In this document: positions 4,644 to 33,811 of the stretch, one piece after another
Numbering within the stretch: position 1 is the stretch's first letter
How the letters are laid out: each line of letters begins with the position of its first letter
Assembly (NCBI GenBank): GCA_018712905.1
Contig: DVGD01000147.1
Location: 1-33,812 of the forward strand
Direction of reading: 5' to 3'
DNA from: Candidatus Avoscillospira stercoripullorum
GTDB taxonomy: Bacteria > Bacillota > Clostridia > Oscillospirales > Oscillospiraceae
DNA: 33,812 bases
Notes under the pieces: model-generated
Seen by the model: only the letters and a program-made list of their open reading frames with translations
Told to the model about the DNA's origin: nothing
Database searches by the model: none
Program-made: the position numbers and the translations under genes

Positions 4644-4777
4644 TTGCGGCCGCGCCCCTGCGAAGGCAGGCGCGGCACGCCAGCCCTCATGCACTTGCGC
4701 CGTTGTGCCGATTTGTAAAATGCGTCAAATTTGTACAATATATATACAGAAATCGATTGTTTAATTCAAAATAATTG

Positions 4778-14212: not shown

Positions 14213-15217
14213 ATGACGATTTATGACATTGCAGAAATCGCAGGTGTCAATGCCAGCACCGTCTCCCGGGTCATCAACGGTAAGCCAGGGTGTGGGAAGA
14301 AGAAGCGGGAGGAGATCCTCGCGCTGCTGAAACAGTATAATTTCATCCCCGACGCAACTGCCCGCAACCTGGTATCCCAGCGCAATCACACCGTCGGAAT
14401 CCTCACAGATGATCTGCATTCCACCCACATGAACGAAGCGATTGCCATTTTGCAGAATGAACTTTTGAGCGCCGGATATCACTGCTATCTGAGCTATGTG
14501 AACGATGGAACCAGTCCAGATGCCGTGGAGCGAGGCTTCCGGGATCTGGCCAGCCGCCGGGTGGAGGGGGTGCTGCTTTTGGGGCAGTGCTTCCACGATC
14601 ATCAAGCGCTGGAGCCGGAGATTATCAAGTATCTGCCGGATAAGCCGGTGGTGCTGGTCAATCAGACGCAGCCCTCCCAGCTGGAAAACATCTATGCCAT
14701 CGGCGCCAACGAGCCGCGCGGCATCCACCGGTGTGTGGAGCTGCTGGTCAGCCGGAAGCGAAATCATCTCATGCTTCTCATTGACCGGGGCCGTACCAGT
14801 ACCCTGCAGCTGAAGCAGGCCTTCGAAGAGGCGCTGACAAAATACGGCAGCGAGATTGCAGGATGCACCGTCGCCGATGTCCCTTATCGCGGCACGGAGG
14901 GAGAAGAGACTGCCCTTACCATCATGCAGCAGCACCCCGAAGTGAACGGGATTATGTGCACCCATGACCGCATTGCCATCAACGCCATTTACGCATTGCA
15001 GAGTTTGGGGCGGGAGGTGCCCGGGGACGTGTCCGTCATCGGCGAGGATAACTCGGAGCTTTGCAAGGTATGCCGCCCCAAGCTCACCTCGCTGGATACC
15101 ATGATCCGGCAAATCACCCTTTTGTCTGCGGAAACCATACTCTGCGCGATGGAAGGACGCCCCTGCTCGCACTATGTGTCCCTGGAAATGGAAATGCATC
15201 ACAGGGACAGCGTATAG
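14213..15217 (+). CDS. LacI family transcriptional regulator
   Basis: MTIYDIAEIAGVNASTVSRVINGKPGCGKKKREEILALLKQYNFIPDATARNL HTH plus periplasmic-binding-like effector domain. Confidence 0.95.
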   Translation: MTIYDIAEIAGVNASTVSRVINGKPGCGKKKREEILALLKQYNFIPDATARNLVSQRNHTVGILTDDLHSTHMNEAIAILQNELLSAGYHCYLSYVNDGTSPDAVERGFRDLASRRVEGVLLLGQCFHDHQALEPEIIKYLPDKPVVLVNQTQPSQLENIYAIGANEPRGIHRCVELLVSRKRNHLMLLIDRGRTSTLQLKQAFEEALTKYGSEIAGCTVADVPYRGTEGEETALTIMQQHPEVNGIMCTHDRIAINAIYALQSLGREVPGDVSVIGEDNSELCKVCRPKLTSLDTMIRQITLLSAETILCAMEGRPCSHYVSLEMEMHHRDSV

Positions 15218-15232
15218 GAAAGGAAACTCCAT

Positions 15233-16141
15233 ATGACGTTCATTGACGCCCATGTTCACATTTTCCCCGAGACGGCACTGGGGCGCGTAAATCCCCGTTT
15301 TGGCGGGGAATATGCCCCCTATGGCTTTCTAAAGCTCCCCGGCGGCGGCGGATACCATGTCATGCCCCCCTACATCCACGACACCCAATTCACGGCAGAC
15401 ACCCTGGTTCATATGATGGATGTCTATGGCGTGAAACAGGCCGTGATTCAGCAGTCCATCCTGAATGAGCAGAACGCTGTGGTGGCGGAAGCCGTGGCGC
15501 GGTATCCCCACCGGCTCTCCGGCTCTATGATCCTCGAACCGGGTTCAAACTGGCAAGCGGATCTCCTGCACTGGAAAAAAGCCGGCCTCAACAGCATCAA
15601 GTTTGAAATGCGCGCCTTTTCCATGGCCTGCCCCGGTGTGGGCTACGACCATCCCTGGATGCGCAGCATGCTGGAGCTTGCCCGGCAGGAAGACCTGACG
15701 GTGGTATTTGATCCGGCACCCACGGATTTCCCGGTGTATCGCCCCGAGGCGCTGTTTGACGCGCTGCGCGCCCTGCCCGGAATTCGGGTGGTCATCTGCC
15801 ATCTGGGGTATCCCAAACCCATGGACACAGCGCAGAGCCGGAGCAAGTGGCAGGAGATGGTGGAGCTTGCCAAGCTGCCCGGGGTTTGGCTGGACGTCAG
15901 CGCGCTGCCGGACTTGTTCGAGGAAGAGGGGTGGCCCTATCCCACCGCCGCCGCATACCTGCGCCAGGTCAAAGACTGGGTGGGTGCGGACAAACTCATC
16001 TGGGGCACTGATGTGCCTGGTACGCTGTGCAACGCCACCTATCCGCAGATGCAGCGCATGTTCTCCATCCCGGGGCTTTTCTCGCAAGAGGAGCAGCAGC
16101 TTCTCTTCTCGGAAAATGCCCGGGCTGCCTACTGTCTGTAA
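15233..16141 (+). CDS. Amidohydrolase (amidohydrolase_2/TIM-barrel metal-dependent hydrolase) family protein
   Basis: FIDAHVHIFPE (HxH), VVICHLGYPKP, LIWGTDVPG metal ligand motifs. Confidence 0.85.
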   Translation: MTFIDAHVHIFPETALGRVNPRFGGEYAPYGFLKLPGGGGYHVMPPYIHDTQFTADTLVHMMDVYGVKQAVIQQSILNEQNAVVAEAVARYPHRLSGSMILEPGSNWQADLLHWKKAGLNSIKFEMRAFSMACPGVGYDHPWMRSMLELARQEDLTVVFDPAPTDFPVYRPEALFDALRALPGIRVVICHLGYPKPMDTAQSRSKWQEMVELAKLPGVWLDVSALPDLFEEEGWPYPTAAAYLRQVKDWVGADKLIWGTDVPGTLCNATYPQMQRMFSIPGLFSQEEQQLLFSENARAAYCL

Positions 16142-16183
16142 GCGCGAGAATCCAACCTCTGCAAAATAATAGCCGCCTCTTTG

Positions 16184-16228
16184 CTCCCTGCCGCTACTGC
16201 TTTTGCAGATGCGGCAGGGAGTTCTTTG
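16184..16228 (+). terminator. Terminator of the LacI-amidohydrolase unit
   Basis: ctccctgccgc ... gcggcagggag (perfect 11-bp stem) followed by ttctttg. Confidence 0.65.
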
Positions 16229-16338
16229 TCCTCTGGAAGGTATTTCCTCTGCGCAAGAGGGAATTGGGCGATTTCGCACAAAACGAAACGTAGTTTTTGA
16301 ACAGTTGTGCCAAATGTCGAAACAAGGCAAAAAACCAC

Positions 16339-16367
16339 TTGAAAAACTGTGCAGAATGTGTTATTTT
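16339..16367 (+). promoter_or_regulatory. Predicted promoter of the large catabolic operon
   Basis: TTGAAA (16339-16344) - 17 nt - TATTTT (16362-16367). Confidence 0.5.
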
Positions 16368-16377
16368 TTGTCATGAA

Positions 16378-16403
16378 AAATTGCGCAACCGATTGCGCAA
16401 TTT
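16378..16403. promoter_or_regulatory. Candidate operator: perfect 26-bp palindrome
   Basis: AAATTGCGCAACCGATTGCGCAATTT, 11-bp arms plus CCGA centre with central CG, located at about +4 to +30 relative to the predicted start site. Confidence 0.65.
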
Positions 16404-16477
16404 CACCACCAGCGCCGGTGTCCATGGTTTCAACTGAAAGTCCGATACTCATTTTGCTTGTAAGGAGAACAAAAACT

Positions 16478-17446
16478 ATGTCCAGCAAGAAAACGCTTCA
16501 GCAGATTCTGGAGGAAAGCAACAAATGCTTCCTCGTCCCCTGTGTTTACGACTGTGCATCCAACCACGCCATGGAGATGTGCGGCTTCCCTGTAACGCTG
16601 CTGTCCGGCGGTGAAGTTTCCATCGCCATGAACGGCGTTATTGACTACGGCTTCACTGGCCTGACGGATCTGGAGTGGGTTGTCAGCCGTGTTGCTAGCA
16701 CCAGCTCTGTGCCGCTGATCTGCGACATCGAAGATGGCTTTGGTGGACCTCTTGCTGTTTACCGCGCTGCCAAGCGCCTGGCTGCCGCCGGTGCCGCCGC
16801 CGTCCAGTTGGAAGACTCAGCGGACATGGAAGAGTCTGTCAAGCTGCTGCCGAGAGCGCAGTATTTGGCGAAGGTTCGCGCAGCGCTCCAGGCGCTCAAA
16901 GGTACCAACTGCCTTCTGATTGCACGAAGCAACGCAGATCCCTTCGATCCCGCGCAGATGAAGGAAGGCTGCGAGCGCCTGCAGGAGGCCATTGAGATCG
17001 GCAAGGCACAGGGTCAGATGGTGCTGGCCATGATGGTCTTGATCGTGGACTATGAGCATGCCAAGGAAATGGCCAAGATTGTCACCGGCCCCAAGGTCTA
17101 CGCCGATGTGCGCGCCGACAACGGCGTTCCCGCTGTGACCATGGAGCAGCTCACCGAGCTGGGCTTTGTGATGTGCTCCACGCACTTCACGCTGAAGTCC
17201 GCCATGGAGGGCATGCTGGAGCACGGCAAGAAAAACTTCGAGAGCCAATCCGTTGCCTACACCTTCACCCATGCCAGCGGTACCGGCGATCCCGACTTCA
17301 GCGCCACGCCCATGTTTGCACCCCAGGATTATATGGCACTGGAAAGCTCCTTCACCGGTGCGGATAAGGAATACACCATCGTAGGCCACAAAGTTGAGGA
17401 TTATCCCGAAGGCTTCAAGCGCATCGACATCGAAGACCGCCTGTAA
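16478..17446 (+). CDS. Isocitrate lyase/PEP mutase superfamily protein, paralog 1
   Basis: MSSKKTLQQILEESNKCFLVPCVYDCASNHAMEMCGF; CDIEDGFGG (DxDxGxG-like); AAGAAAVQLEDS; LIARSNADP. RBS aaggag. The ORF-track start at 16349 lies inside the regulatory region. Confidence 0.85.
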   Translation: MSSKKTLQQILEESNKCFLVPCVYDCASNHAMEMCGFPVTLLSGGEVSIAMNGVIDYGFTGLTDLEWVVSRVASTSSVPLICDIEDGFGGPLAVYRAAKRLAAAGAAAVQLEDSADMEESVKLLPRAQYLAKVRAALQALKGTNCLLIARSNADPFDPAQMKEGCERLQEAIEIGKAQGQMVLAMMVLIVDYEHAKEMAKIVTGPKVYADVRADNGVPAVTMEQLTELGFVMCSTHFTLKSAMEGMLEHGKKNFESQSVAYTFTHASGTGDPDFSATPMFAPQDYMALESSFTGADKEYTIVGHKVEDYPEGFKRIDIEDRL

Positions 17447-17461
17447 TTGGGAGGCTCGCAT

Positions 17462-18454
17462 ATGTATTTCCCTGAAGAAACGCTTCGCGCATACATTGCC
17501 GACGGCAAGGTTCGCCTGGTTCCGGAGCTGGCCGATTGTGCCGGCGCCAAGGCCGCGGAAATGAATGGCTTTGAGGTCATTATGATTAGCAGCGGAGATC
17601 TGGCCTGCTCCCTGACGGGCATTCCCGATCTGCAGCTCCTATCCATCGATGATTTCTGCCAGGCGACCCAACGCATTACCAACATGACCCGGATGCCGCT
17701 GATTGTAGACGCCGACGACGGCTTCGGCTTCGGCCGCGGCCTCAATACCTTCTATGGCTGCAAAAGAATTATGCAGTCCGGCGCAGCCGGTGTGCTGGTC
17801 ACCGACACCAGCGAGCTGGCACGCCAGGGGCAGCTCTCCATTGAGGACGCCGTACTCCGGTTCAAGGCAGCCCGGGATGGTCTGGATGAAGACGGACGCC
17901 ACGGCTTCCTCATCGCGCGGATCGATACCAACCCGGAAGAGGACTTTGACGACTGTGTCGCCCGGATGAAGGCCTATATGGCCGCCGGTGCAGATATGAT
18001 TTGCGTATTGTGGATGCACAAGCTCAAGAGCAACAAGTTCGAGCTGCTCCAGCGGCTGAAAGAAGCCTGTGACTGCCCCATGTGGTACCCCGACCTCTGC
18101 GGCAGGAGCTACGATCCCAACGAGATCACCATGGATGAGCTGCGCAGGCTGGGCAACTGTCATCTGGTTGGCATCCACTTCTCCTGTCACGCAGCCATGA
18201 TGGCCATGCTGGATGTAGGCCGTCATGTTCTCCGGGAAGAAACCAATGATTACCTCGATACTTGCTTTGACAATATCGGTTACAAATGCTACACTACTAT
18301 GTCTATGTATGGTCTGGCGGACGGCTACTGGGTTGACCGTGAAGGACGGTATGTACGGCATCCGCAGGATTCCCTGGCCAAGCGGAACGCTGACTACTTC
18401 CTGCGCAGCACCGACGTACTCGATCCCGACGCACCAAAAGACAGCAAGCTGTAG
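17462..18454 (+). CDS. Isocitrate lyase/PEP mutase superfamily protein, paralog 2
   Basis: RLVPELADCAGAKAAEMNGFEVIMISSGDLACS; IVDADDGFGFG; QSGAAGVLVTD; LIARIDTNPEEDFDD. RBS gggagg; start ATG 17462. Confidence 0.8.
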   Translation: MYFPEETLRAYIADGKVRLVPELADCAGAKAAEMNGFEVIMISSGDLACSLTGIPDLQLLSIDDFCQATQRITNMTRMPLIVDADDGFGFGRGLNTFYGCKRIMQSGAAGVLVTDTSELARQGQLSIEDAVLRFKAARDGLDEDGRHGFLIARIDTNPEEDFDDCVARMKAYMAAGADMICVLWMHKLKSNKFELLQRLKEACDCPMWYPDLCGRSYDPNEITMDELRRLGNCHLVGIHFSCHAAMMAMLDVGRHVLREETNDYLDTCFDNIGYKCYTTMSMYGLADGYWVDREGRYVRHPQDSLAKRNADYFLRSTDVLDPDAPKDSKL

Positions 18455-18487: not shown

Positions 18488-19840
18488 ATGAAGAAACTGG
18501 TTTGCTTACTGTTAGTAGTTGCCATGATCCTATCTCTGGCAGCCTGCGCTGGTGACAATAATGCCACCACAGACACCACCGACACCACCACTGACACCAC
18601 CGACACCACCACTGACACCACCAACACCACCACGGAACCTTCCGGGGATTCCGACGACACCGCTTCCTCCGGCGACACGATCAAGATCGGTGTGTGCGCC
18701 AACTACTCCAGCATTGCAATTTCCTTCTTCGCCCCCGGTCTTTATTACGCAATTAACGAGATCAACGCGGCCGGCGGCATCGACGGCAAGCAGGTCGAGT
18801 GGGTCTATCGCGATACCCAGGGCGACGCTTCCAACCTGACCCAGAAGCTCAACGAGCTCAAGGACGAAGGCGTTGTCGCCATTGTGGGTCCTGACTCCGA
18901 CGCCATGGCGCCCGCTGCTGCAAAGTGGGCAGAAGCCAACCAGATCGTTCTGGTTTCTCCCTCCACCATGTCCACCACCGTCGCCCTGGAGGCGCACAGT
19001 GATTACTTCTTCACTGCCGGCCTGAATGCTTGGGCCATCATCAACGCCATCAACAGCGACATCTCCGACAAGAACTACGAGAACTACGTTGTTATCGGCA
19101 CCGACGGCGGTTCCTCCGACGACTTCATCAAGCTCTCGGCACAGACCTTCGACGCCGAGCAGTCCAAGACCGTGCAGGTTACCACCGGCACCACCGACCT
19201 GAGCTCCGTTGTCATGTCCCTGATGGGCGACGATCCCGATTTCTCCATTTCCTCCATCTCCGCTACCACTTGGACTTCTTTCTTTGCCCAGGCTTCTCAG
19301 CTGGGTATGTACGACGAGATCATAAACTACGGCTGGGAATTCATCGACTCCCTGTACACCGGTATCGGTGAGGATTACCCCGCCGGTCACTTCCGCGGCG
19401 TTCTGGGCTGGCCCCACTGCATCCAGGATACCGAGGAGCAGCAGGCTATGACCGCCGCCTTCCTGCAGATTGCCGAGGACGAGTTCGACATGACTGCTTC
19501 TCCCGGCGCGCAGATGATGATGTGGTATATCGCCGGTCAGTCCATCATCGAGGCTCTGAAGATCGCCGGTGCGGATTGCACCACCGATGCCTTGATTGAT
19601 GCGCTGGAAAACATCGATTTTGCCACGCCTTGGGCCGACTCGATCTCCTACCGCGCCATGGATCACGCCCTGGTGATGCCCTACACCTTCGCCACTGCTG
19701 TGTGGGATGACCAGGAAGCCGGCACCGTCAAACTGGAAGACGTGATCGTCATGGATGCCAACGAACTCCTGCCCTCCTACGAGGACTACCAGAGCTACGC
19801 TGAGACCTACGGTCTGCCCTTCGACTGGGTGAAAGAGTAA
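18488..19840 (+). CDS. ABC transporter substrate-binding lipoprotein, Liv/branched-chain amino acid type
   Basis: MKKLVCLLLVVAMILSLAACAGDNN (lipobox LAAC), Thr/Asp linker, IKIGVCANYSS...AINEINAAGGIDGKQVEWVYRDTQGDASNLTQKLNELKDEGVVAIVGPDSDAMAPAAA. Confidence 0.93.
   Translation: MKKLVCLLLVVAMILSLAACAGDNNATTDTTDTTTDTTDTTTDTTNTTTEPSGDSDDTASSGDTIKIGVCANYSSIAISFFAPGLYYAINEINAAGGIDGKQVEWVYRDTQGDASNLTQKLNELKDEGVVAIVGPDSDAMAPAAAKWAEANQIVLVSPSTMSTTVALEAHSDYFFTAGLNAWAIINAINSDISDKNYENYVVIGTDGGSSDDFIKLSAQTFDAEQSKTVQVTTGTTDLSSVVMSLMGDDPDFSISSISATTWTSFFAQASQLGMYDEIINYGWEFIDSLYTGIGEDYPAGHFRGVLGWPHCIQDTEEQQAMTAAFLQIAEDEFDMTASPGAQMMMWYIAGQSIIEALKIAGADCTTDALIDALENIDFATPWADSISYRAMDHALVMPYTFATAVWDDQEAGTVKLEDVIVMDANELLPSYEDYQSYAETYGLPFDWVKE
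18572..18634 (+). repeat. 21-bp tandem repeat encoding a Thr/Asp linker
   Basis: gacaccaccgacaccaccact twice exactly (18572-18592, 18593-18613) plus a degenerate third unit (18614-18634). Confidence 0.85.
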
Positions 19841-19852
19841 ATCAATGAACAC

Positions 19853-19878
19853 GGTACGCCGCCTTCGGGCGGCGTACC
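19853..19878 (+). promoter_or_regulatory. Intra-operon UUCG-capped RNA hairpin between binding protein and permease genes
   Basis: ggtacgccgcc-ttcg-ggcggcgtacc, perfect 11-bp stem with a C(UUCG)G tetraloop and no U-tract. Confidence 0.75.
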
Positions 19879-19896
19879 ACCCCGGAGGTAAAACGC

Positions 19897-20763
19897 ATGA
19901 AAACCAGTTATCTTATTCAGGTTCTCATCATCGGAATCGCGAACGGCTTCCTGTACTACCTGATTGCCTGCGGTCTTTCACTGATTGTTTCCGGCATCGG
20001 TATTGTCAATGTGGCACAGGGTTGCTTCTTCATCCTCGGTATTTTCCTGTCTCTATCTCTGACGCCGAGCATCGGCCTGGGATGGTCGTGCTTACTTGTT
20101 CCCTGCATCATTGCTCTGTTCGCAATTCCCTTTGAGCGGCTGATCCGCCCGCTGCTCAGTAAACATGTTTTCTACGTCCTGTTGGCAACCTACGCACTGG
20201 CAATGATCATCGGCGATGTGACCTATTACTTCGTTGGTGGCAATCATGGCCTGACTGAGATCCCCGAAATTCTCAACGGCAGAGTCAATATTTTCGGGGG
20301 CAAAGTACCTGTCTATTATTTGTTCATCTGCGTTGTGGGTCTTCTGATCTACGCCGCCTACTGGCTGATGATGAACAGAACCAAACTTGGAAAAATCCTT
20401 CGTGCCAATATGACGGATCGTCAGATGGTCGAAGCTCTGGGATACAACGTCAATTTGCTGTTTATTGCGATGCTGATGCTGGCCTTTGCCATGAGCGCCC
20501 TGGGCGGCGTACTCAGCGGCTGCATCCAGTCCTATGACGCCAAGGGCAGCGTCACCGTGTTTACCAATGTCATGCCCATTATCTTTATCGGTGGTCTGCG
20601 GAATATGAAGGGCACACTTCCCTCCGCACTGCTCGTGGGTGTTGTGGGCGGCTTTGCAGCAGTTCTCACCCCGCAGTTTTACAACATGGTTCCGGCAGCT
20701 ATGATGGTGTTGGTCATGCTGGTGAAGCCAGAGGGTCTGTTCACCAGAAAGGAGAAAGCATGA
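19897..20763 (+). CDS. Branched-chain amino acid-type ABC transporter permease (LivH-like)
   Basis: LIIGIANGFLYYLIACGLSLIVSGIGIVNVAQGCFFILGIF...GLRNMKGTLPSALLVGVV. Confidence 0.92.
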   Translation: MKTSYLIQVLIIGIANGFLYYLIACGLSLIVSGIGIVNVAQGCFFILGIFLSLSLTPSIGLGWSCLLVPCIIALFAIPFERLIRPLLSKHVFYVLLATYALAMIIGDVTYYFVGGNHGLTEIPEILNGRVNIFGGKVPVYYLFICVVGLLIYAAYWLMMNRTKLGKILRANMTDRQMVEALGYNVNLLFIAMLMLAFAMSALGGVLSGCIQSYDAKGSVTVFTNVMPIIFIGGLRNMKGTLPSALLVGVVGGFAAVLTPQFYNMVPAAMMVLVMLVKPEGLFTRKEKA

Positions 20764-21728
20764 AAGCTCTGAAATCCAAAGCCGACCTCGTAACAGGTGT
20801 GGCGCTGATCGCGCTGCTGCTGGGGTTCTCCTTCTCCTCCAGCGTTTCCTTCAAGCATCTCATCATGAAAATTATCATCATGGGTCTGTTTGCTCTGAGC
20901 CTGAACATCCAGTCCGGCTGGGGCGGCCTGCGGCCTCTGGGGCACGGCCTCATGTTCGGCCTCGGCGCTTACACCTATGCCATTACCACCGTTCGGATGG
21001 ACATGAACCCCTACCTGGCAGTGCTGGTTACGGTGGTGTTCACGGTACTGGTTTCCATGTTCCTGGGCTATCTGCTGGTGCGCAAGAGTGATGATTTGGC
21101 ATTTTCCTTCCTCAGCATGGGCTTTTGCACCCTGACCTATACCATCATCCTCAAAACCAGCTACCTGGGCGTGGATGCCGGCATCAGCGGTGTGCCGCGT
21201 CTGCCCTTTGCAATCTCCGATGACGCCACCTATGTGCTGACCGTCGTCGTGGTCTGCATCGCTGTGCTGCTGATTTATCTTTTGTCCAAGTCCCAGTTCT
21301 CCTGGATTTTCCGTGCTGTCCGGGAAAACAAGGAAAAAGCCACCTGCATCGGTGTCAACATTGTGCGGGTGCAGCTGATGGGCTATGTCATCAGCGGTCT
21401 GTTCGCCTGCATTGCCGGCATGCTTTACACCATGAAGAACAACGGCGCGTATACTTATTCCTGCTCCGTGCAGCTTTCCATGGAAGCGCTGATTATGTGC
21501 CTGCTGGGCGGCATGAACAGCTTCTGGGGTCCGGCTCTGGGCGCCATGATCGTCACGCTGTTCAACACCCAGGTCACCAACACCACCATCTATGCGAACT
21601 TCTGGCTGGGCATTCTGACACTGTTCGTCGTGATGTTCATGCAGGGCGGTATTTTGGACGAAGGGCTGCGGGATCAGATCAAAGCCTTCCTCGTCAAGCG
21701 TCGCAGAAAGGGAACGGAAAAGTCATGA
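20760..21728 (+). CDS. Branched-chain amino acid-type ABC transporter permease (LivM-like)
   Basis: LFALSLNIQSGWGGLRPLGHGLMFGLGAYTYA...LGGMNSFWGPALGAM; ATGA overlap with the upstream gene. Confidence 0.92.
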   Translation: MKALKSKADLVTGVALIALLLGFSFSSSVSFKHLIMKIIIMGLFALSLNIQSGWGGLRPLGHGLMFGLGAYTYAITTVRMDMNPYLAVLVTVVFTVLVSMFLGYLLVRKSDDLAFSFLSMGFCTLTYTIILKTSYLGVDAGISGVPRLPFAISDDATYVLTVVVVCIAVLLIYLLSKSQFSWIFRAVRENKEKATCIGVNIVRVQLMGYVISGLFACIAGMLYTMKNNGAYTYSCSVQLSMEALIMCLLGGMNSFWGPALGAMIVTLFNTQVTNTTIYANFWLGILTLFVVMFMQGGILDEGLRDQIKAFLVKRRRKGTEKS

Positions 21729-22474
21729 GCGAACAAACGTATATTCTTAGAACCGAAAATCTCACGAAGAACTTCGGCAGCCTCAAGGCCGTGGATGATA
21801 TTTCCATTCAGGTTCCCTACGGTCAGATGCGGGCTGTCATCGGACCCAACGGCGCCGGCAAATCCACGCTGATGAATTTAATCATTCAGAAGACTCCCCT
21901 CTCCGCCGGCAAGGTATTTTTGATGGACAAAGAAATTACCGGCATCCCCACCCATACCATCTCCAATCTGGGTATGAGCAAGTGCTTCCAGATCACCCAG
22001 GTGTTCACATCGCTGACCGTGTTTGAAAACGTGCGCATGTCTCTGATCGTGGATCGGAAGAAGGCCTATAATGTGCTCCCGGTTGCCAGCAAATACCTGC
22101 GGGAAGAAGTCATGGAGATTCTCCGGCTGATCGGCATTGCGGATCTGGCAGACGAAGTGGTGAAAAACCTATCCTACGGCGACCAGCGCCGCCTGGAGAT
22201 TGCCATTACCCTGGCCAAGCGCCCCAAGCTGATGATCCTCGACGAGCCCGCTGCCGGCGTGGCGCGGAAGGAAAGCTATGTGCTCATGGATCTGGTGCGT
22301 GAACTGCGGGATAAGCTGAACATGACCATGCTGTTCATTGAGCACGATATGGACATTGTCTGGAACTATGCCGAGGAAATCACCGTGATGAACCTGGGGC
22401 AGTTTGTGGCCTCCGGTACGCCGGAGGAAATCCGGCATAACGATTTTGTGCAGAAAGCGTATCTGGGAGGATAA
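21725..22474 (+). CDS. ABC transporter ATP-binding protein (LivG-like)
   Basis: LRTENLTKNFGSLKAVDDISIQV; GPNGAGKST Walker A; LSYGDQRRLEIA; LMILDEPAAGV; ATG overlaps the LivM-like stop. ORF-track start 21497 is too far upstream. Confidence 0.94.
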   Translation: MSEQTYILRTENLTKNFGSLKAVDDISIQVPYGQMRAVIGPNGAGKSTLMNLIIQKTPLSAGKVFLMDKEITGIPTHTISNLGMSKCFQITQVFTSLTVFENVRMSLIVDRKKAYNVLPVASKYLREEVMEILRLIGIADLADEVVKNLSYGDQRRLEIAITLAKRPKLMILDEPAAGVARKESYVLMDLVRELRDKLNMTMLFIEHDMDIVWNYAEEITVMNLGQFVASGTPEEIRHNDFVQKAYLGG

Positions 22475-22478
22475 TGGT

Positions 22479-23192
22479 ATGATTCTGGAAGTGAAAGATG
22501 TACACGCATACTATAAAGACTCTCATGTGCTGTTCGGTATGGATTTCGGTGTGGACGAAGGCGAGTCCGTCTGCCTGATCGGCAGAAATGGTGCCGGCAA
22601 GACCACCACCATGAAGGCCATTATGGGTATGATGAACCCTGTCCACAAATGTACCACGAAGGGCAGTATCCTGTTTGATGGGAAAGAGATCTGCGGGAAA
22701 CCCACCTATGCCATCTCCAAAGCCGGTATGGGTTACGTTCCCCAGGGTCGTCACATCTTCTCTATGCTGACTGTGCGTGAGAACCTGGAAATCGCCGAGC
22801 GCAAGGGCGTGGGCGGCGAGATGACTTGGACGATGGAGCGGATTTTCGAGCTGTTCCCCCGTCTCAAAGAGCGGCTGAACTTCAAAGGCCCCAGCCTCTC
22901 CGGCGGTGAGCAGCAGATGCTGGCCGTGGCAAGAGGGCTGGTACAAAATCCCCGGATCCTGCTGCTGGACGAGATCACCGAAGGCCTAGCGCCTATCATT
23001 GTCGATGAGCTTGCCGAGATCATCGCCGAGCTGCGCAGGCAGGGCGTCACCGTCCTTGTGGCCGAGCAAAATATGAAGTTTGCGCTGAAGGTCTCGGATC
23101 GCTGCTGCATCCTGGAAAAGGGCAAAATCGTCTACAGCGATAAAACCTCCGATATCCCGCAGGAAATCTTTACAAAGTATCTGGGCGTTTAA
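22479..23192 (+). CDS. ABC transporter ATP-binding protein (LivF-like)
   Basis: MILEVKDVHAYYKDSHVLFGMDFGV; GRNGAGKTTT; LSGGEQQMLAVARGL; LLLDEITEGLAP. Confidence 0.94.
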   Translation: MILEVKDVHAYYKDSHVLFGMDFGVDEGESVCLIGRNGAGKTTTMKAIMGMMNPVHKCTTKGSILFDGKEICGKPTYAISKAGMGYVPQGRHIFSMLTVRENLEIAERKGVGGEMTWTMERIFELFPRLKERLNFKGPSLSGGEQQMLAVARGLVQNPRILLLDEITEGLAPIIVDELAEIIAELRRQGVTVLVAEQNMKFALKVSDRCCILEKGKIVYSDKTSDIPQEIFTKYLGV

Positions 23193-23247: not shown

Positions 23248-23276
23248 TACATTTGCACAGGAAAGGAGCAACCCCT

Positions 23277-25676
23277 ATGTATCAATTTAAGCCGGTCAGT
23301 GATCGTGTGGCATATCTTCGGGAGCGCTATCGCACTTCCCCGGTGATTTTGGATTCCGAGCATGCCCGTCTGATGACGGAGGCTTATCAGAAATACGCCC
23401 ACGACGTGGCGATTATCAAGCGCGCCAAGACGCTCTACTATGTCTGTGAGCACCGCACCCTTCGCGTGGAAGACAAAGAGCTCATCGTGGGCAACCTGGG
23501 TCTTAACTACCGCGGCACCAGCATCTCCCCCGATTATGGCATGGGCTGGCTCATCGACGAGCTGGATACCGGCCTCTTCGACCAGCGGGATACCCAGCTT
23601 GAGCACATGGAGCTCTCTGAGGAGGATCGGAAGATTTTCCGGGAGATCTATCCCTTCTGGGAGCAGAACAGCGCCTCCACGTTCGTCGACAAGGCAATCC
23701 CCAGCGTGTTCTCCGACGTGCTGGCAGGCGGCGTCCTGTCCTATCGCGATAAGGGTAACGCAGACATGCCCACCGGCCACTTCAACGCCAATTATAAAAA
23801 GCTCATCAACCGGGGGCTTGCTTCCATCCGCCAGGAGGCGCAGGAGAAGCTGGACGGCCTGATGGGGCACATCGGCCCCAATGACCCCGGCCGGTTCTTC
23901 TTCTATCAGGCAATTATCACCTGCTGTGATGCCGTGATCCTGCTGGCCAAGCGCTACGCCAAGGCCTGCTATGAAAAGGCGGAAACGGCGGAGGAGCCGC
24001 GCAAGTCGGAGCTCCTCATGATGGCTGAGTCCCTGGATCGGATCATGGAAAACCCCTGCCAGACCTTCCACGATGCGGTGCAGGCCTGCTACCTCTATCA
24101 GATCGTCCTGGCACTGGACGGAAGCCTCCACGGCATCTCCTTCGGCCGGTTCGACCAGTACTGCTACCCCTTCCTCAAGGCGGATCTGGAGAGCGGCCGC
24201 ATCACCGAGGACGAGGCGCAGGAGACGGTGGACTGCTTCTTCCTGAAAATCAGCGAGATGTTCAAGGGTCGTTCCCACTTCGTTTCCATGGGCGGCGGCG
24301 GCTACACCTCCGGTCAGCAGATGAGCCTGGGCGGTGTGGATGCCGCGGGCAACGACGCCTCCAATCCCCTTTCTTACATGATGCTCCAGGCCTCCGCACG
24401 CCTGAAGCTGCACACGCCCCCGCTGTCGCTGCGGATTCATAAGAACACGCCCCGGGAGCTGTGGGAAGCGGCCACCGCCTGCACCAGTCAGGTGGGCGGC
24501 ATCCCCACGTTCCAGAATGATGATGTCATCATCCCCATGATGGTGAAAGCCGGCTACTCGCTGGAGGACGCCCGGGATTATTGCATCATCGGCTGCGTGG
24601 AGCCTGCCGGTTCCGGCAATGATTTCCCCGCCTGCGGCGGCCCGCACGCCAAGTGCTACATCAACATGGCCAACTGTCTGATTGTGGCCCTCAACGATGG
24701 CGTCAATCCCATCAATGGCATTCAGAGCGGCCCCCACACGGGAAAGCTCTCTGAAATGACCGACTTCCCCCAGGTGCTGGAGGCATTCAAGCGGCAGGTG
24801 GAGTTCTACATGGATTGGAAGATCTCCCTGACCAATATGATGGAGTTCATCACCCGGAATATCATGCCTCTGCCGGTGCTGTCCATGACCTTGGACGGCT
24901 GCATGGAGTCCGGCCTGGACTGCACCTCCGGCGGTGCCAAGTACAATAGCTGCGGCAGCGCATCGGTGGGTACCGGTACGGTGGGCAACAGCCTTGCCGC
25001 CATCAAGTGGGCTGTCTTCGATGAGAAAATCTGCACCGCCAAGGAGTTCTATGATGCCTGGATGGCCGGCTGGAAGGGGCATGAGGAGCTGCGGCAGATG
25101 TTAATTCACAAAGCGCCCCACTATGGCAACGGGGAGGACGCAGTGGATGAGCTGGCCTCCTGGGCCATGGATGTCTACGCCCAGAAATATAACGCCGGGC
25201 AGTGCCTCCGGGGCAGAATGAAGGCGGGACTGTTCTCCGTCTCCGGTCATATCCCCATGGGCAAGAGCACCATGGCCACCCCTGACGGACGTCTGGGCGG
25301 CACACCGCTATCCGACGGCATTTCTCCCTCCCAGGCCACCGACAAGCATGGCCCCATTCCCATTTTGCAGGGTGCTGCGAAGCTCAAGCAGAGCCACGAC
25401 TACAACGGCACGCTGCTCAATATGAAGTTCCATCCCAAATCCGTGGAAGGCCAGGAGGGCATTGACAAGCTGATCCGACTGGTGCAGACCTATTTTGACG
25501 AGGGCGGCATGCACATCCAGTACAATGTCGTTGGCTCAGATACGCTGCGGGACGCCCAGAAGCATCCGGAAAAATACCGGGATCTGGTGATTCGCATAGC
25601 CGGTTTCTCCGCTTATTTTGTGGAGCTTTATAAGGAGCTGCAGGACGATTTGATTTCGAGAACCGATCAACAGTAA
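23277..25676 (+). CDS. Glycyl radical enzyme (PFL-like, eliminase/dehydratase-type), GRE2
   Basis: CIIGCVEPAGSGNDF active-site Cys-Val-Glu motif; LVIRIAGFSAYFVEL glycyl radical motif; RBS aaaggag; start ATG 23277. Confidence 0.95.
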   Translation: MYQFKPVSDRVAYLRERYRTSPVILDSEHARLMTEAYQKYAHDVAIIKRAKTLYYVCEHRTLRVEDKELIVGNLGLNYRGTSISPDYGMGWLIDELDTGLFDQRDTQLEHMELSEEDRKIFREIYPFWEQNSASTFVDKAIPSVFSDVLAGGVLSYRDKGNADMPTGHFNANYKKLINRGLASIRQEAQEKLDGLMGHIGPNDPGRFFFYQAIITCCDAVILLAKRYAKACYEKAETAEEPRKSELLMMAESLDRIMENPCQTFHDAVQACYLYQIVLALDGSLHGISFGRFDQYCYPFLKADLESGRITEDEAQETVDCFFLKISEMFKGRSHFVSMGGGGYTSGQQMSLGGVDAAGNDASNPLSYMMLQASARLKLHTPPLSLRIHKNTPRELWEAATACTSQVGGIPTFQNDDVIIPMMVKAGYSLEDARDYCIIGCVEPAGSGNDFPACGGPHAKCYINMANCLIVALNDGVNPINGIQSGPHTGKLSEMTDFPQVLEAFKRQVEFYMDWKISLTNMMEFITRNIMPLPVLSMTLDGCMESGLDCTSGGAKYNSCGSASVGTGTVGNSLAAIKWAVFDEKICTAKEFYDAWMAGWKGHEELRQMLIHKAPHYGNGEDAVDELASWAMDVYAQKYNAGQCLRGRMKAGLFSVSGHIPMGKSTMATPDGRLGGTPLSDGISPSQATDKHGPIPILQGAAKLKQSHDYNGTLLNMKFHPKSVEGQEGIDKLIRLVQTYFDEGGMHIQYNVVGSDTLRDAQKHPEKYRDLVIRIAGFSAYFVELYKELQDDLISRTDQQ

Positions 25677-25689
25677 GGGAGGAACCCAC

Positions 25690-26649
25690 ATGGAAGACCG
25701 GGAGATCATCGGTCATTTATATGATATTCAAGGATATTCCGTCCACGACGGCCCCGGAATCCGCACCACCGTGTACCTCAAAGGCTGCCCCTTGAAGTGC
25801 CTGTGGTGCCACAGCCCGGAGTCCCAGACCTTTACCGATGAGCTGGCTTATATGAAGCTGCGGTGCGTGGGTGTGGAAGACTGCGGCGCCTGCCTCCGGG
25901 TGTGCCAGCATCAGGCCATTGCCCTGTGCGAGCCGGAGAAATCCGTGCTGGACGATACGGTGTATCTGACGAAGATCCGGGTGCTGCGGGATCGCTGCAC
26001 CCAGTGCATGGACTGTGCCAAAGCCTGCAATGCCGAAGCGCTGTTCTGCGATGGGTACGACATGACCGTGGGGGAGGTCTTTGCACGGGTCATGAAGGAC
26101 AAGCTGTTCTTTGGTGAAGACGGGGGCGTGACGATTTCCGGCGGAGAAGCCATGAGTCAGCCGGAATTCACCTACGCGCTGGCCAAAATGTGCAAAGAAG
26201 CCGGGATCAGCGTCTGCCTGGATACCACCGGATATTGCAGCTTCGAGCTGCTGGAGAAAATGATCCCTGTCACGGATCTGTTTCTTTATGATCTCAAGCA
26301 CATGGACAGCGCCAAGCACAAATCTTTTACCGGCGTGCCCAATGAACTGATTTTGGAAAATGCCCGGCGTCTTGCTGCCGCGGGCGGCAAGCTGCAGGTT
26401 CGCGTCCCCGTGATTCCCAAGCTGAATGGCGGCATGGAGAACATCCGCGCCACAGCTGCCTTCTGCAAGGAGCTGGGGGATGCCGTTACGCTGGTGCAGG
26501 TACTGCCCTACCACCGGATGGGCATTGCCAAGTATGAACGGCTGGATTTACCGTACCGGCTGGTCAATGTGGATCCGCCGGAGGATGAATATATGAATGC
26601 GCGCTTGCAGGTAATGCTGGATGCCGGCCTGAAGGCGCAGCTGCATTGA
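25690..26649 (+). CDS. Glycyl radical enzyme activating protein (radical SAM)
   Basis: YSVHDGPGIRTTVYLKGCPLKCLWCHSPE (CxxxCxxC SAM cluster); two ferredoxin-like clusters (CVGVEDCGACLRVCQH; CTQCMDCAKACN); VTISGGEAMSQPEF. Confidence 0.96.
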   Translation: MEDREIIGHLYDIQGYSVHDGPGIRTTVYLKGCPLKCLWCHSPESQTFTDELAYMKLRCVGVEDCGACLRVCQHQAIALCEPEKSVLDDTVYLTKIRVLRDRCTQCMDCAKACNAEALFCDGYDMTVGEVFARVMKDKLFFGEDGGVTISGGEAMSQPEFTYALAKMCKEAGISVCLDTTGYCSFELLEKMIPVTDLFLYDLKHMDSAKHKSFTGVPNELILENARRLAAAGGKLQVRVPVIPKLNGGMENIRATAAFCKELGDAVTLVQVLPYHRMGIAKYERLDLPYRLVNVDPPEDEYMNARLQVMLDAGLKAQLH

Positions 26650-26667
26650 ATTGAGGAGGTTCATCAG

Positions 26668-27645
26668 ATGAAAAAAATTGTCTCTCTGTTTGCAAAGGGA
26701 AATCCCCTGTATCAAATGCTCAACGACCGCGCGGCCAAGTATGCCGAAGAAAAGGGTCTTGCGTACGAGTGGGTGCCCATGGATCCGTTCACCCCGGAGA
26801 AGGCTGCCGCCGCGCTGAAGGAGGCAGACGCCGGCATCATCGATGTGGAACCCTATGACAAGGAAATCTTCTCTCAGATCTGCGATCGTACCAAGCTGCT
26901 CATCCGCTTTGGCGTGGGCTTTGACGCGGTGAACCTGGCGGACGCCACCGCATACGGGATCAAGGTCGCCCGCACCCAGGGCGCCAACGCCGGCGCCGTG
27001 GCGGAAGACGCGCTATTGATGATGATGGCGCTGCGCCGGAAGCTCAACCAGGGGCAGGTGGGCGTGAAGACCGGCAACTGGGTGAAGGAGATCGGCCATG
27101 AGACCATCGGCGCCACCGTGGGCATTCTGGGCTTCGGCGCCGTGGGCAAGACGCTGGCACGCCTGCTGCGCGGCTTCGGCTGCCGCATCCTGGCCTATGA
27201 TACGTATCACGACGAAACGGCCGCCGCCGAGCTGGGCGTGGAATTTGTGGATGCCGATACCATCTTCCAGACGTGCGATGCCATCAGCATTCACCTGGCG
27301 CTCAACGATGCGACCCGTGGCTATGTCAATGCCGAGCGTCTTGCCATGATGAAGCCCGATGCCGTCATCGTCAACACGGCACGCGGCCCGCTGGTGGACG
27401 ACGAAGCCATGGTGGCCGCGCTCAAAAATCATCAGATTGGCGGCGCCGGCCTGGATGTGTTTGCAGAAGAACCCCTGCCCGTGACCAGCCCCTACATCGG
27501 CCTGGACAATGTGATTCTGACCCCCCACGTGGCCAGCTCCACGGTGGAGTCCCTGTGGAACATCTATGCCATGGCCATCGATGTAGCTTACGACTTCTTC
27601 CACGGCACGGAGAGCGCCCAGACCAAGCGCTGCTGGCTGAACTGA
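26668..27645 (+). CDS. D-2-hydroxyacid dehydrogenase (NAD-binding, PGDH-like)
   Basis: GILGFGAVGKTLARLL; VNTARGPLVDDEAM (Arg), FAEEPLP (Glu), ILTPHVASST (His) catalytic elements. Confidence 0.93.
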   Translation: MKKIVSLFAKGNPLYQMLNDRAAKYAEEKGLAYEWVPMDPFTPEKAAAALKEADAGIIDVEPYDKEIFSQICDRTKLLIRFGVGFDAVNLADATAYGIKVARTQGANAGAVAEDALLMMMALRRKLNQGQVGVKTGNWVKEIGHETIGATVGILGFGAVGKTLARLLRGFGCRILAYDTYHDETAAAELGVEFVDADTIFQTCDAISIHLALNDATRGYVNAERLAMMKPDAVIVNTARGPLVDDEAMVAALKNHQIGGAGLDVFAEEPLPVTSPYIGLDNVILTPHVASSTVESLWNIYAMAIDVAYDFFHGTESAQTKRCWLN

Positions 27646-27659
27646 GTGGGAGGCGCGCC

Positions 27660-28121
27660 GTGCTTTACAATGAGCTCTCCATGCACCATCGCTATGATCT
27701 CAGCAGTCCGGCATTTGAGGCCGCCTTTTCCTTCCTGCGTCGGTCGGATCTCGCCGAGCTTGCCGCGGGCGAATATCCCGTATGCCCCGGCGTGACTGCC
27801 TACGTGCAGCGCTACACCACTTCGCCCGCCGAGGCGCTGGATTTTGAGACCCATAACAAATACTTTGATATTCAGTACGTGGTTGCCGGCCTGGAAGCCA
27901 TCGGCGTCATTCCGCGGCGTTGTCTTTCCGAACAGACTCCCTACGATTCCGCGCGTGACATACAGTACTGGCACGAGCCGGAATTTGCCGGCAGCGTGGT
28001 GCTGTATCCGGGCGACTATGCCGTGTTGCCGCCGGAGATGGCGCATAAGCCTCGCATCTCCCTGGGGGAAGACCGCCCTGTGCGCAAGGTGGTCATCAAG
28101 GTTCCCGCTGTTCCCCGATAA
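27660..28121 (+). CDS. YhcH/YjgK/YiaL (DUF386) family protein
   Basis: GTG start at 27660 with RBS gggagg; LYNELSMHHRYDLSSPAFEAAFSFL...DFETHNKYFDIQYVVAGLEAIGV...PGDYAVLPPEMAHKPRISLGEDRPVRKVVIKV. Confidence 0.85.
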   Translation: MLYNELSMHHRYDLSSPAFEAAFSFLRRSDLAELAAGEYPVCPGVTAYVQRYTTSPAEALDFETHNKYFDIQYVVAGLEAIGVIPRRCLSEQTPYDSARDIQYWHEPEFAGSVVLYPGDYAVLPPEMAHKPRISLGEDRPVRKVVIKVPAVPR

Positions 28122-28151
28122 TCCGATCACACACGAAAGGAAATTGATTTT

Positions 28152-29147
28152 ATGCTTACGAAACGACAGAATTTGCTGGAAACCATCCATGGCGGGAATC
28201 CCGACCGCTATGTCAATATGTTTGAGGCCTTCGGCTTTACCAGCTATATTCCCTTCTCTCTCCACGATCATCGTCCCAACCCCGGCGACCTGAATGTGGT
28301 CAATTCCTGGGGCGTCACCCGTTCGTGGCCGGTGGGCAACCCCGGCCCCTTCCCCATTCACACCGCCGACCGTCTGGTCGTGAAGGATATTGCCGAGTGG
28401 CAGCGCTATGTGAAAGCGCCGCAGGTGGTTTATGATGCCAAGGAGTGGGAGCAGGCCATTGCCCATGCCGAGAAGATCGACCGCAACGAGCAGTTTGTAA
28501 CCGCCACCTTCGCCCCGGGAATCTTTGAGAATATCCACTACCTGTGTGAAATGCAAAATACGCTCATGGCCTTCTATGAAGAGCCGGAAGCCCTGCAAGA
28601 GCTGATTGAGTTCCTGGGCGAGTGGGAAATCAGCTATGCCCAGGAAGTTTGCAAGTACCTCAAGCCCGACTGCCTGTTCCAGCATGATGACTGGGGCAGC
28701 CAGATTTCCACCTTCATTTCCCCCGATATGTTCGAGGAATTTCTGCTGCCCGTCTATAAGAAGGTATATGGCTATTACAAGAGCCACGGTGTGGAATTGA
28801 TCGTGCACCACTCCGATTCCTTCGCCGCCACCCTGGTGCCCTATATGATCGAAATGGGCATCGATATCTGGCAGGGTGTGATGACCACGAACAACATTCC
28901 CGAGCTCATCCAGAAGTACGGCGGCCAGATCTCCTTCATGGGCGGGATCGACAGCGCAGCCGTGGATCACGAGGGCTGGACGGAGGAGGAGATCCAGAAG
29001 AAAGTGTTTGAGGCATGCGACGCCTGCGGCAAGCATTACTTCATTCCCTCCGCATCGCAGGGCGGCGCCATGGCCACCTACCCAGGGGTCTACGACGCAT
29101 TGACCCGCGCCATCAACGCCAAGAGCGTCATCGACTTCGCAAAGTAA
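28152..29147 (+). CDS. Uroporphyrinogen decarboxylase/MtaA-like (UroD superfamily) protein
   Basis: TKRQNLLETIHGGNPDRY...FQHDDWGSQISTFISPDMFEEFLLPVYKKVYGYYKSHGVELIVHHSDSFA...GIDIWQGV fold signature. Confidence 0.85.
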   Translation: MLTKRQNLLETIHGGNPDRYVNMFEAFGFTSYIPFSLHDHRPNPGDLNVVNSWGVTRSWPVGNPGPFPIHTADRLVVKDIAEWQRYVKAPQVVYDAKEWEQAIAHAEKIDRNEQFVTATFAPGIFENIHYLCEMQNTLMAFYEEPEALQELIEFLGEWEISYAQEVCKYLKPDCLFQHDDWGSQISTFISPDMFEEFLLPVYKKVYGYYKSHGVELIVHHSDSFAATLVPYMIEMGIDIWQGVMTTNNIPELIQKYGGQISFMGGIDSAAVDHEGWTEEEIQKKVFEACDACGKHYFIPSASQGGAMATYPGVYDALTRAINAKSVIDFAK

Positions 29148-29225
29148 TGGAGATTTCAGCGGCCTGTGCAGCCTGGTGCATTGCCCTGCGCAGGCCGCTT
29201 TCAGTGGAAAAGGAGTTCGATTATC

Positions 29226-31196
29226 ATGTATCGCAGACTATTCCAACCCATTCAGATTGCCGGCATGCGGGTTCCAAACCGCATTGCCATGACCGCCATG
29301 GGCAACCATCTTGCCAATCCCGACGGCAGCGTGTCCGATGCCGATGTGGCATTCTATGCCGCCCGCGCCGCAGGCGGTGTGGGGCTTGTGATCACCGAGT
29401 GCGCCTGTGTGGACTTTGCCACCGGCAAGGGCAACCTCAGGCAGCTGGCGGTGAATGACGATCGGTATATCCCCGGCCTCAAGCGGCTGGCCGATGCGGT
29501 GCACGCCCACGGCGCTGCCCTGTGCGTGCAGCTCTATCATCCCGGCCGGCAGGGCATTGCCGCCGTCAACGGTGTGGAAACCATGGCAGCTCCCAGCGTA
29601 ACCGAGTGCCAGTGCGTCCATCAGCCCACCCATGCAATGACCACCGAAGAGATCCGCGAGATGGTGCACCGCTTTGCCATGGGCGCCTACCGCCTCAAGC
29701 AAGCCGGCGTGGATGCAGTGGAGTTCCACGGTGCCCATGGCTATCTGATCGGGCAGTTTCTCAGTCCTTATACCAACCGGCGCAGCGATGCCTATGGCGG
29801 TTCTTTTGAAAACAGGATGCGCTTCCTGGACGAGATTATCTTGGAGGCGCGCCGCCTTTGCGGCGACTATCCCATGCTGGTGCGCTTCTCTGTGGACGAG
29901 CATATGGACTATGCCGGCAAACCGGGCGAGGGGCTTCAATTATCCGACGGCATTGAGATCGCCCGCCACCTGGAGAAGCTGGGTGTGGACGCCCTGGATG
30001 TGAGCAGCGGCATCTACGAGACCATGAACACCGCCTGGGAACCGGTGGGCTTTGACGAAGGCTGGAAAATCGACGGGCCTGCCGCCGTAAAGAAGGCCGT
30101 TTCCATTCCGGTCATCGGAGCCTCTGTCATCCGCGAGCCCGCCTATGCTGAGCAAATCCTTTCCGAGGGCAAGGTAGATCTGGTGGGTTCCGCCCGTGCC
30201 TTCCTGGCCGATCCCCAGTGGGGTAAAAAGGCACTGGAGGGGCGTGACTGCGAGATCCGCAAGTGCATCTCCTGCCTATACTGCATGGAAACCCTGATGG
30301 CGGCCGATATGAGTCCCGTTCCCATGGGCTGTGCCATTAACTTCGAGGCCGGCCGGGAAGCCGTCTGGCAGGATACGCAGCTTCCCAAGGATGGAAATGG
30401 GCGCTGTGTTGCCGTGATTGGCGCCGGACCTGCCGGGATGGAAGCCGCCCGGGTGCTGGCGCTGCGGGGGTTCCGTCCGGTGGTCTTTGAGAAGACCGCC
30501 CATGTGGGCGGCCAGGTTCTGTTCGGCTCCAAGCCGCCCAAGAAGGAGAAGACCAGCTGGCTGGTGGAGTATCAGCTGGGACAGCTGGAAAAGCTGGGCG
30601 TGGAGATCAGGCTCAATACCCCCGCCACGGTGGAGGCGCTGCGGGAACTCCAGCCCTGCGCCGTGTTTGTAGCACAGGGCTCCCACAGCGTCAAGCCCCG
30701 CTCCATTCCCGGCCTGGACGGCGCGGACGTCTATGTGCCCGCCGATGTGCTCATGGGGCGCGTAAACCTCCGGGATCAGGATGTGTGCGTGGTGGGATCC
30801 GGCATGACGGGGATCGAAACCGCGGAACTGCTGGGCAGCCAGGGGAACCGGGTCACCGTATTTGAAATGGCGGACGAGATCGGCCCCGGCGTATTCTTAC
30901 AGAACTTGATTGATGTGATGCGCCGTGTTGACGCCCATCATACCAAGCGCTATCCCAAGCACAAGCTATTAAAGGTGGACGGCGGCGACGTCACCGTGGA
31001 AACCACCGATACCCATGTGCAAAAGGCCTTCCATTTTGACAGCGTTGTGATCTCCCTGGGCGTGGCGCCCAACCGCGAACTGGTGGAGGAGTTGGAGGCA
31101 AACTTTGACCACGTTGTGCAAATCGGAGATGCTAACAAGGGCGGCCGGATTGCGGACGCCATTGCGGCCGGCTATCTGGCTGCCGCCGAACTATAG
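29226..31196 (+). CDS. NADH:flavin oxidoreductase/OYE-type FMN + 4Fe-4S + FAD oxidoreductase (second copy of the family)
   Basis: MYRRLFQPIQIAGMRVPNRIAMTAMGNH; SPYTNRRSDAYGGSFENRMRF; CISCLYC...C; CVAVIGAGPAGMEAARV; DVCVVGSGMTGIETAE. Confidence 0.93.
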   Translation: MYRRLFQPIQIAGMRVPNRIAMTAMGNHLANPDGSVSDADVAFYAARAAGGVGLVITECACVDFATGKGNLRQLAVNDDRYIPGLKRLADAVHAHGAALCVQLYHPGRQGIAAVNGVETMAAPSVTECQCVHQPTHAMTTEEIREMVHRFAMGAYRLKQAGVDAVEFHGAHGYLIGQFLSPYTNRRSDAYGGSFENRMRFLDEIILEARRLCGDYPMLVRFSVDEHMDYAGKPGEGLQLSDGIEIARHLEKLGVDALDVSSGIYETMNTAWEPVGFDEGWKIDGPAAVKKAVSIPVIGASVIREPAYAEQILSEGKVDLVGSARAFLADPQWGKKALEGRDCEIRKCISCLYCMETLMAADMSPVPMGCAINFEAGREAVWQDTQLPKDGNGRCVAVIGAGPAGMEAARVLALRGFRPVVFEKTAHVGGQVLFGSKPPKKEKTSWLVEYQLGQLEKLGVEIRLNTPATVEALRELQPCAVFVAQGSHSVKPRSIPGLDGADVYVPADVLMGRVNLRDQDVCVVGSGMTGIETAELLGSQGNRVTVFEMADEIGPGVFLQNLIDVMRRVDAHHTKRYPKHKLLKVDGGDVTVETTDTHVQKAFHFDSVVISLGVAPNRELVEELEANFDHVVQIGDANKGGRIADAIAAGYLAAAEL

Positions 31197-31213
31197 AGAA
31201 AGGAGTTGATGTG

Positions 31214-32371
31214 ATGAACTACTATCCTTATTTCCAGCTGGCGCCGGTGTTGTTTGGCCGGGGTGTGGCCGGTCAAACCGGTGAAGTCGTCAAAAAACTG
31301 GGCTGCGGCAATGCGCTGCTGGTGACAGACCCAGGCGTTGCCGCCGTGGGCGCCGCGGAAACCGTCCGTGCCGCCCTGGCCGCCGCCGGCGTCGCCGTCA
31401 CGGTATGGGATCAGGCGCAGATGGATTGCCCCGAACAGACGGTGCGGGATGCAGCTGCCGTTGCCCGGGCACAGAAAGTGGACTGCGTGGTGGGCGTCGG
31501 CGGCGGCAGCGTGCTGGATACCGCCAAGGCCGTTGCCGCAGTGAGCGTCAACGGCGACGGTGTGCTGGGAGAGATGCCCTTGTATCTCACCGGGCAGAAG
31601 CAGTATGCCGTACCGCCGCTTGACGTGATTGAAGTGCCCACCACCTCCGGCACCGGTTCTGAGAGCACCTTTGTGGCCGTTGTCACCTCGGATGCCCTGG
31701 ACTGCAAGATCGGCCTGCCGGTGCATCCCGCCTACGGCGTGGTCGATCCTCTGCTGACGCGCACCGTGCCCCAGGATATTACCGCCTATACCGGCATGGA
31801 CGCATTCTCCCACGCCAACGAAGCGCTCACCGAGCAGAAGGCCTCCCGCCACTCCGATCTGCTGGCCTATGAAGCCATTCGGCTCATCCGGGATGATCTG
31901 CCTGCGGCAATTGCCGACGGCAGCAATATGGAAGCCCGTGAAAATCTAGCCTTTGCCAGCAATATCGCCGGTATCTCTTTCAATGAATCGGGCACCCATA
32001 TCGGCCATTCCATTGCCCATGCCCTGGGTCATGTCTATCACCTGCCCCACGGCGTCTGCTGCGCCAATGTAACGCCGGCTGTCATCGCCTTCACCGCACG
32101 CGCTTACCCGGAAAAGATGAGAAAGCTGGGAGAACTGATGGGCGCGGTGTTCTCCTCCGATGCGCCCGCCGAGATTGGCCGGGCAGCGGCAAAGGCCGTT
32201 CGGGAATTTGCCGTCCGGGTGGGCGTACCTACCTTCCGCCAGCTGGGTCTTGACGAGGAAAAGGTTTTGGCGGTTCGGGATGCCGTGTGGAACGATGCTC
32301 TGGCGCATGCCTACGGCGGCAGCTTCACACCCGAGGACGTGGAGCAAATGCTCCTGGATACGCTGGGATGA
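31214..32371 (+). CDS. Iron-containing (group III) alcohol dehydrogenase
   Basis: VVGVGGGSVLDTAKA; EVPTTSGTGSEST; GMDAFSHANEAL; GHSIAHALGHVYHLPHG metal ligands. Confidence 0.95.
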   Translation: MNYYPYFQLAPVLFGRGVAGQTGEVVKKLGCGNALLVTDPGVAAVGAAETVRAALAAAGVAVTVWDQAQMDCPEQTVRDAAAVARAQKVDCVVGVGGGSVLDTAKAVAAVSVNGDGVLGEMPLYLTGQKQYAVPPLDVIEVPTTSGTGSESTFVAVVTSDALDCKIGLPVHPAYGVVDPLLTRTVPQDITAYTGMDAFSHANEALTEQKASRHSDLLAYEAIRLIRDDLPAAIADGSNMEARENLAFASNIAGISFNESGTHIGHSIAHALGHVYHLPHGVCCANVTPAVIAFTARAYPEKMRKLGELMGAVFSSDAPAEIGRAAAKAVREFAVRVGVPTFRQLGLDEEKVLAVRDAVWNDALAHAYGGSFTPEDVEQMLLDTLG

Positions 32372-33398: not shown

Positions 33399-33479
33399 GG
33401 GCGTCGAACCGTTGCTCCGAGGTTGGGACCATCAACGCCAAAAAAGATCCACACCCCCGTTGGGGATGCGGATCTTTTT
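33399..33479 (+). repeat. 81-bp direct repeat, copy 1
   Basis: gggcgtcgaaccgttgctccgaggttgggaccatcaacgccaaaaaagatccacacccccgttggggatg[c]ggatcttttt; differs from copy 2 at one base. Confidence 0.95.
33440..33479 (+). terminator. Rho-independent terminator of the large operon
   Basis: aaaaaagatccacacccc ... ggggatgcggatcttttt hairpin with T-tract, 74 bp after the SDR stop. Confidence 0.75.
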
Positions 33480-33530: not shown

Positions 33531-33733
33531 CCAAATCACAACCCAGCACAGCGGTTGTGATTTGGAGAGGAGGAGCAAGGGAGCGAGCGGATGACATCTT
33601 TTTTTGCCATAGGCATAAAAAGATGTCGGAGCAAAGCGTACTTTGCTCCGACGTGGTGCCGGTGGCCGGCGTCTCCGCGCCAAGTGCCGCCGCGAGCGGC
33701 GGTTGCGCTCCGACACACCCGCCTGCGGGCGGG
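33531..33733. repeat. Cluster of five hairpins between the direct repeats
   Basis: 33531-33565 ccaaatcacaacc/ggttgtgatttgg; 33593-33627 gacatcttttt/aaaaagatgtc; 33626-33651 tcggagcaaag/ctttgctccga; 33687-33702 ccgccgc/gcggcgg; 33718-33733 cccgcc/ggcggg. Confidence 0.85.
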
Positions 33734-33811
33734 CGTCGAACCGTTGCTCCGAGGTTGGGACCATCAACGCCAAAAAAGATCCACACCCCCGTTGGGGATG
33801 TGGATCTTTTT
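33731..33811 (+). repeat. 81-bp direct repeat, copy 2 (reaches the window edge)
   Basis: Same sequence as 33399-33479 with t in place of c in gatg[t]ggatc; 80/81 by manual alignment. Confidence 0.95.

Follow-up and report, generated by a model that had tools for sequence, protein, structure and literature searches.

A predicted operator for a pathway-specific LacI-family repressor upstream of a PEP-mutase-like and glycyl radical enzyme operon

The window, by which we mean the whole stretch of 33,812 nt that was analysed, carries a lacI-amidohydrolase gene pair followed on the same strand by a large operon, and between them lies the palindromic element that is the subject of this work (Table 1). 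A LacI-family gene had been placed 1.2 kb upstream of this element in the first-pass annotation, and the gene at 14213-15217 does have both domains expected of it (PF00356 and PF13377) and ends 1.16 kb upstream. Its product has the hinge leucine (ARNL) that fits CcpA-like, CG-reading members of the family (PMC2329647). As a terminator-like stem-loop separates the lacI-amidohydrolase pair from the operon promoter, the large operon is probably on its own transcript. A second glycyl radical enzyme, encoded at 6253-8700, is 45% identical to the enzyme at 23253-25676, has GCQE where the latter has GCVE and likewise scores below every specific NCBIfam cut-off; relatives of both share one cluster in Blautia. 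At the contig end, an 81-bp direct repeat (33399-33479 and 33731-33811, 99% identical) contains a terminator-like hairpin.

Table 1. Features of the window around the candidate operator, in positions of the window.
Feature	Position	Strand	Remarks
LacI-family regulator, predicted cognate repressor	14213..15217	+	PF00356, PF13377; DNA-binding domain TIYDIAEIAGVNASTVSRVIN; hinge ARNL
Amidohydrolase, probably cotranscribed with lacI	15233..16141	+	PF04909
Stem-loop then TTCTTT, probable intrinsic terminator of the lacI-amidohydrolase transcript	16183..16222	+	-33.0 kcal/mol
Predicted sigma-70-type promoter	16339..16367	+	TTGAAA-17-TATTTT, extended -10 TG
Candidate LacI-family operator, CG-centred imperfect palindrome	16378..16403	.	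AAATTGCGCAACCGATTGCGCAATTT, 12/13 pairs
Operator core, conserved	16385..16396	.	GCAACCGATTGC; consensus GCAAYCGRTTGC
PEPM1, PEP mutase / isocitrate lyase family, first gene of the operon	16478..17446	+	
PEPM2, second PEP mutase / isocitrate lyase family gene	17447..18454	+	start codon probably inside ORF start
Branched-chain-amino-acid-type ABC importer: binding protein, two permeases, two ATPases	18488..23192	+	
Glycyl radical enzyme	23253..25676	+	GCVE and RIAGF motifs; below every specific NCBIfam cut-off
Radical-SAM activase, 2-hydroxyacid dehydrogenase, UroD-like, OYE/BaiCD-like flavoenzyme, Fe-ADH, short-chain dehydrogenase	25690..33366	+	

The element had been described as a perfect 26-bp palindrome centred on CG. 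Sequence, coordinates and CG centre stand, with the centre between 16390 and 16391, but the palindrome is not perfect, because the pair beside the central CG is C/A. Each half is itself self-complementary (TTGCGCAA), as had been noted. An even palindrome with a central CG is the form usual for LacI-family operators, 1173 of 1303 motifs for such transcription factors having a central CG (PMC4052901). The conserved core spans 12-14 bp and the symmetry in the window 20-26 bp, set against an operator length of 16-22 nt for this family. It is the sole even 26-bp palindrome with at least 12 of 13 pairs in the whole window, and when the whole window was simulated 200 times with a Markov-1 model, 10 of the simulated sequences held one as good. 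With about 5% of simulated windows containing its equal, the palindrome alone is only moderately unusual, so the case rests on position and conservation; a chance palindrome without function is nevertheless extremely unlikely, given that core, spacing and co-occurrence are all conserved, as detailed below. The core derived from orthologous loci was matched with no more than one mismatch in the intergenic space of the window in only 31 of 20,000 simulations. The outer bases, TTGC...GCAA, are unlike those of most orthologous sites, which usually read TGCAATCGATTGCA.

The predicted promoter is the only promoter-like site in 16140-16480 (shuffled sequences give 0.4), and with +1 at about 16374 the element extends from about +4 to +29, in close agreement with the +4 to +30 first proposed. 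It precedes the first operon gene, as had also been claimed, lying 88 bp before the ATG at 16478 and thus within the 30-140 bp before the start codon where more than 75% of LacI-family sites are found (PMC4052901). A palindrome at this position could also act in RNA, as a hairpin in the 5'-UTR that protects or regulates the messenger, and an 11-bp stem with a CCGA loop can indeed be drawn at the predicted 5' end (-12.8 kcal/mol). The leader, however, has a z-score of only -1.6, and the orthologous sites keep the DNA core while forming at most short stems, several of them being asymmetric (GAAAYCGATTGCA), which makes a function in RNA very unlikely.

Conservation was assessed among relatives of PEPM1 found in a set of 84,980 species genomes. 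LacI orthologues of 41-47% identity are encoded just upstream of PEPM1-PEPM2-BP6-LivHMGF in 11 other records (L019, L021-L026, L028-L030 and L033), one of which, L030, is a variant with an amidohydrolase replacing PEPM2 (PEPM1-amidohydrolase-BP6-LivHMGF). The window LacI and these 11 linked orthologues form one clade with support of 98/99. Nine of the 11 records have, upstream of PEPM1, sites of the GCAAYCGRTTGC type that depart from it at no more than one of the eight half-site bases, and L019 and L023 have weaker ones there (6/8). Counting every site that keeps seven or more of the eight bases of GCAA...TTGC about a central CG gave 19 in the 9.5 kb upstream of PEPM1 vs five in 470 kb elsewhere in the loci, an enrichment of about 190-fold. 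The corresponding binomial value of 1.6e-28 overstates the case, because the motif came to light in the very loci that were then counted, and because several of these are closely related and do not count independently; the fold difference is the safer figure. The core is thus found upstream of the first gene wherever LacI and the operon are both kept, weakly in L019 and L023, which bears out the conservation expected by the first-pass annotation of a true operator.

The spacing between promoter and site is conserved as well. In seven of the eight loci with the site close to the gene, some of which have short flank stretches in common, the -10 hexamer lies 21-24 nt from the operator centre, L027 being the exception, and six of the eight have their top promoter score at the conserved spacing. 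The score peaks 22 nt before the operator centre, where its mean of 10.0 is above the highest value, 8.5, that any of 500 null simulations reached. The geometry is different in most Lachnospiraceae-type loci, with 218-331 bp separating the site from PEPM1. It is different also in L026, in which a small divergent gene (9315-9746), cupin-like by eye, stands between lacI and PEPM1; here the site is at the upstream edge of this gene, on the side of PEPM1. In three loci (L013, L022 and L030) the region upstream of PEPM1 holds a pair of operator-like sites spaced 145-152 bp apart, and such pairs might provide a basis for DNA looping; G307, G314 and G316 have pairs with a spacing of 63-66 bp close to other LacI genes. 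Since three loci have two sites, a second operator was looked for in the window, but nothing beyond a weak match with a CG centre, 72 bp upstream, came up. No core-matching site was found upstream of lacI itself, either in the window or in its orthologues.

Site and LacI orthologue largely go together across genomes. Two loci, L012 (Blautia) and L013 (Lachnospiraceae), have the site and no adjacent LacI gene, and in both genomes an orthologue is encoded elsewhere (50% and 47% identity, respectively). The Blautia orthologue ends a cluster of about 29 kb that starts with the site and PEPM1 and in which the glycyl radical enzymes, flavoenzyme, Fe-ADH, activase, dehydrogenase and UroD-like gene of the window all have relatives, and in the L013 genome the orthologue adjoins glycyl radical enzyme and UroD-like genes. 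No such LacI was found at E 1e-30 in six genomes that lack the site and have PEPM1 in different surroundings, and three Spirochaetales genomes have the site together with LacI relatives of about 30% identity that fall outside the clade where placed. The genome of the window encodes seven LacI-family DNA-binding domains in all, and the site could be bound by one of the six others, or by a different palindrome-binding regulator altogether. The TIYDIA...STVSR head that accompanies the core elsewhere is present in the window's protein and in none of the other six, and linkage and co-occurrence favour the local LacI gene over other regulators, so that we regard binding by another protein as unlikely.

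The core, including its 20-bp form, has one copy in its own genome, and there are zero to four copies per genome in 16 related genomes, often beside LacI genes; most of the sites away from PEPM1 in these genomes adjoin LacI genes with the TIYDIA...STVSR head. This distribution bears on the possibility that the element is a cre site, bound for carbon catabolite repression by a global CcpA rather than by the local LacI. The core fits the cre consensus WGNAANCGNTTNCW (cited in PMC5504672) except at the two outermost positions, and the many orthologous sites that read TGCAATCGATTGCA come closer still. Both outermost positions of the core do differ, however, the core is single-copy and co-occurs with a pathway-linked LacI, and no CcpA-grade protein was found in the genome, though this is 87% complete, the best one scoring 146.8 bits vs a cut-off of 442. 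A cre site is quite unlikely on these grounds. A CG-centred intergenic near match (GAAATCGATTGT) lies at 4743-4766 ahead of a TTGCAT-TATAAT-like promoter; as a further operator 4743-4766 (4749) was rejected, with two mismatches to the core and an estimated frequency at chance level. The 20-mer allowing one mismatch has just one further near match in 301 genomes of the family and no match in five genomes of the same genus, in which LacI and PEPM1 matches are also absent at E 1e-40. Searches with LacI in 394 genomes of the order (E 1e-60) and with PEPM1 in 391 genomes of the class (E 1e-120) returned the window's own gene only.

Taken together, the conserved core, the promoter spacing, the LacI linkage and the co-occurrence support the LacI-operator reading of the palindrome first put forward, and the element is, as far as sequence comparison can tell, very probably bound as operator by a pathway-specific LacI-family repressor whose gene lies 1.2 kb upstream. 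A dimer of this repressor would occupy the CG-centred palindrome, which spans about +4 to +29 of the operon promoter, and as long as inducer is absent would prevent RNA polymerase from initiating or from escaping the promoter, until a pathway metabolite released it from the operator. The element had been called a roadblock operator; the promoter-proximal operator is upheld, but roadblock is too specific and only one of two mechanisms, because a site at +4 to +29 also fits blocking of initiation by occlusion. That LacI binds the site, that it represses and does not activate, and what kind of inducer it answers to are inferred. The type of switch is ordinary, and the anaerobic degradation pathway that it would control seems to be uncharacterised. 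More tentatively, LacI and its operator may constitute an undescribed regulon for an uncharacterised glycyl-radical-enzyme degradation pathway with a non-sugar inducer, a reading that we consider possible but that falls just short of probable. A specific regulator and operator can now be named for a conserved bacterial cluster that encodes two PEP-mutase-like enzymes and an importer as well as glycyl radical enzymes without a match to any named function at cut-off, and the LacI effector would give a direct handle on the pathway substrate.

Among known systems, the predicted operator resembles the local LacI-family operators compiled in PMC4052901 in its even palindrome, central CG, distance of 30-140 bp and neighbouring regulator gene. 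It differs from them in a symmetry that reaches 26 bp and in that no autoregulatory site was seen, whereas three quarters of local LacI regulators autoregulate (PMC4052901); those operators also mostly control sugar use, while the window operon looks like a glycyl-radical-enzyme pathway. With CcpA cre sites it shares the CG centre and a similar inner AA..TT core, but it is set apart from them by the misfit of the outermost positions, the one core copy in the genome and the lack of a CcpA-grade protein among those found. A literature search on the core sequence and the gene cluster found nothing relevant except IolQ (DegA) of B. subtilis. This LacI-family repressor has a high-affinity footprint at iolX that extends from +4 to +30 (PMC5504672). 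IolQ/iolX is the closest measured case, with a near-identical position, a CG-centred core, TTGCGCAA and a resemblance to cre; it differs in its core (AGAAARCGCTTKCK), in its target, an inositol dehydrogenase gene, and in having a second, lower-affinity site at +68 to +88 (PMC5504672).
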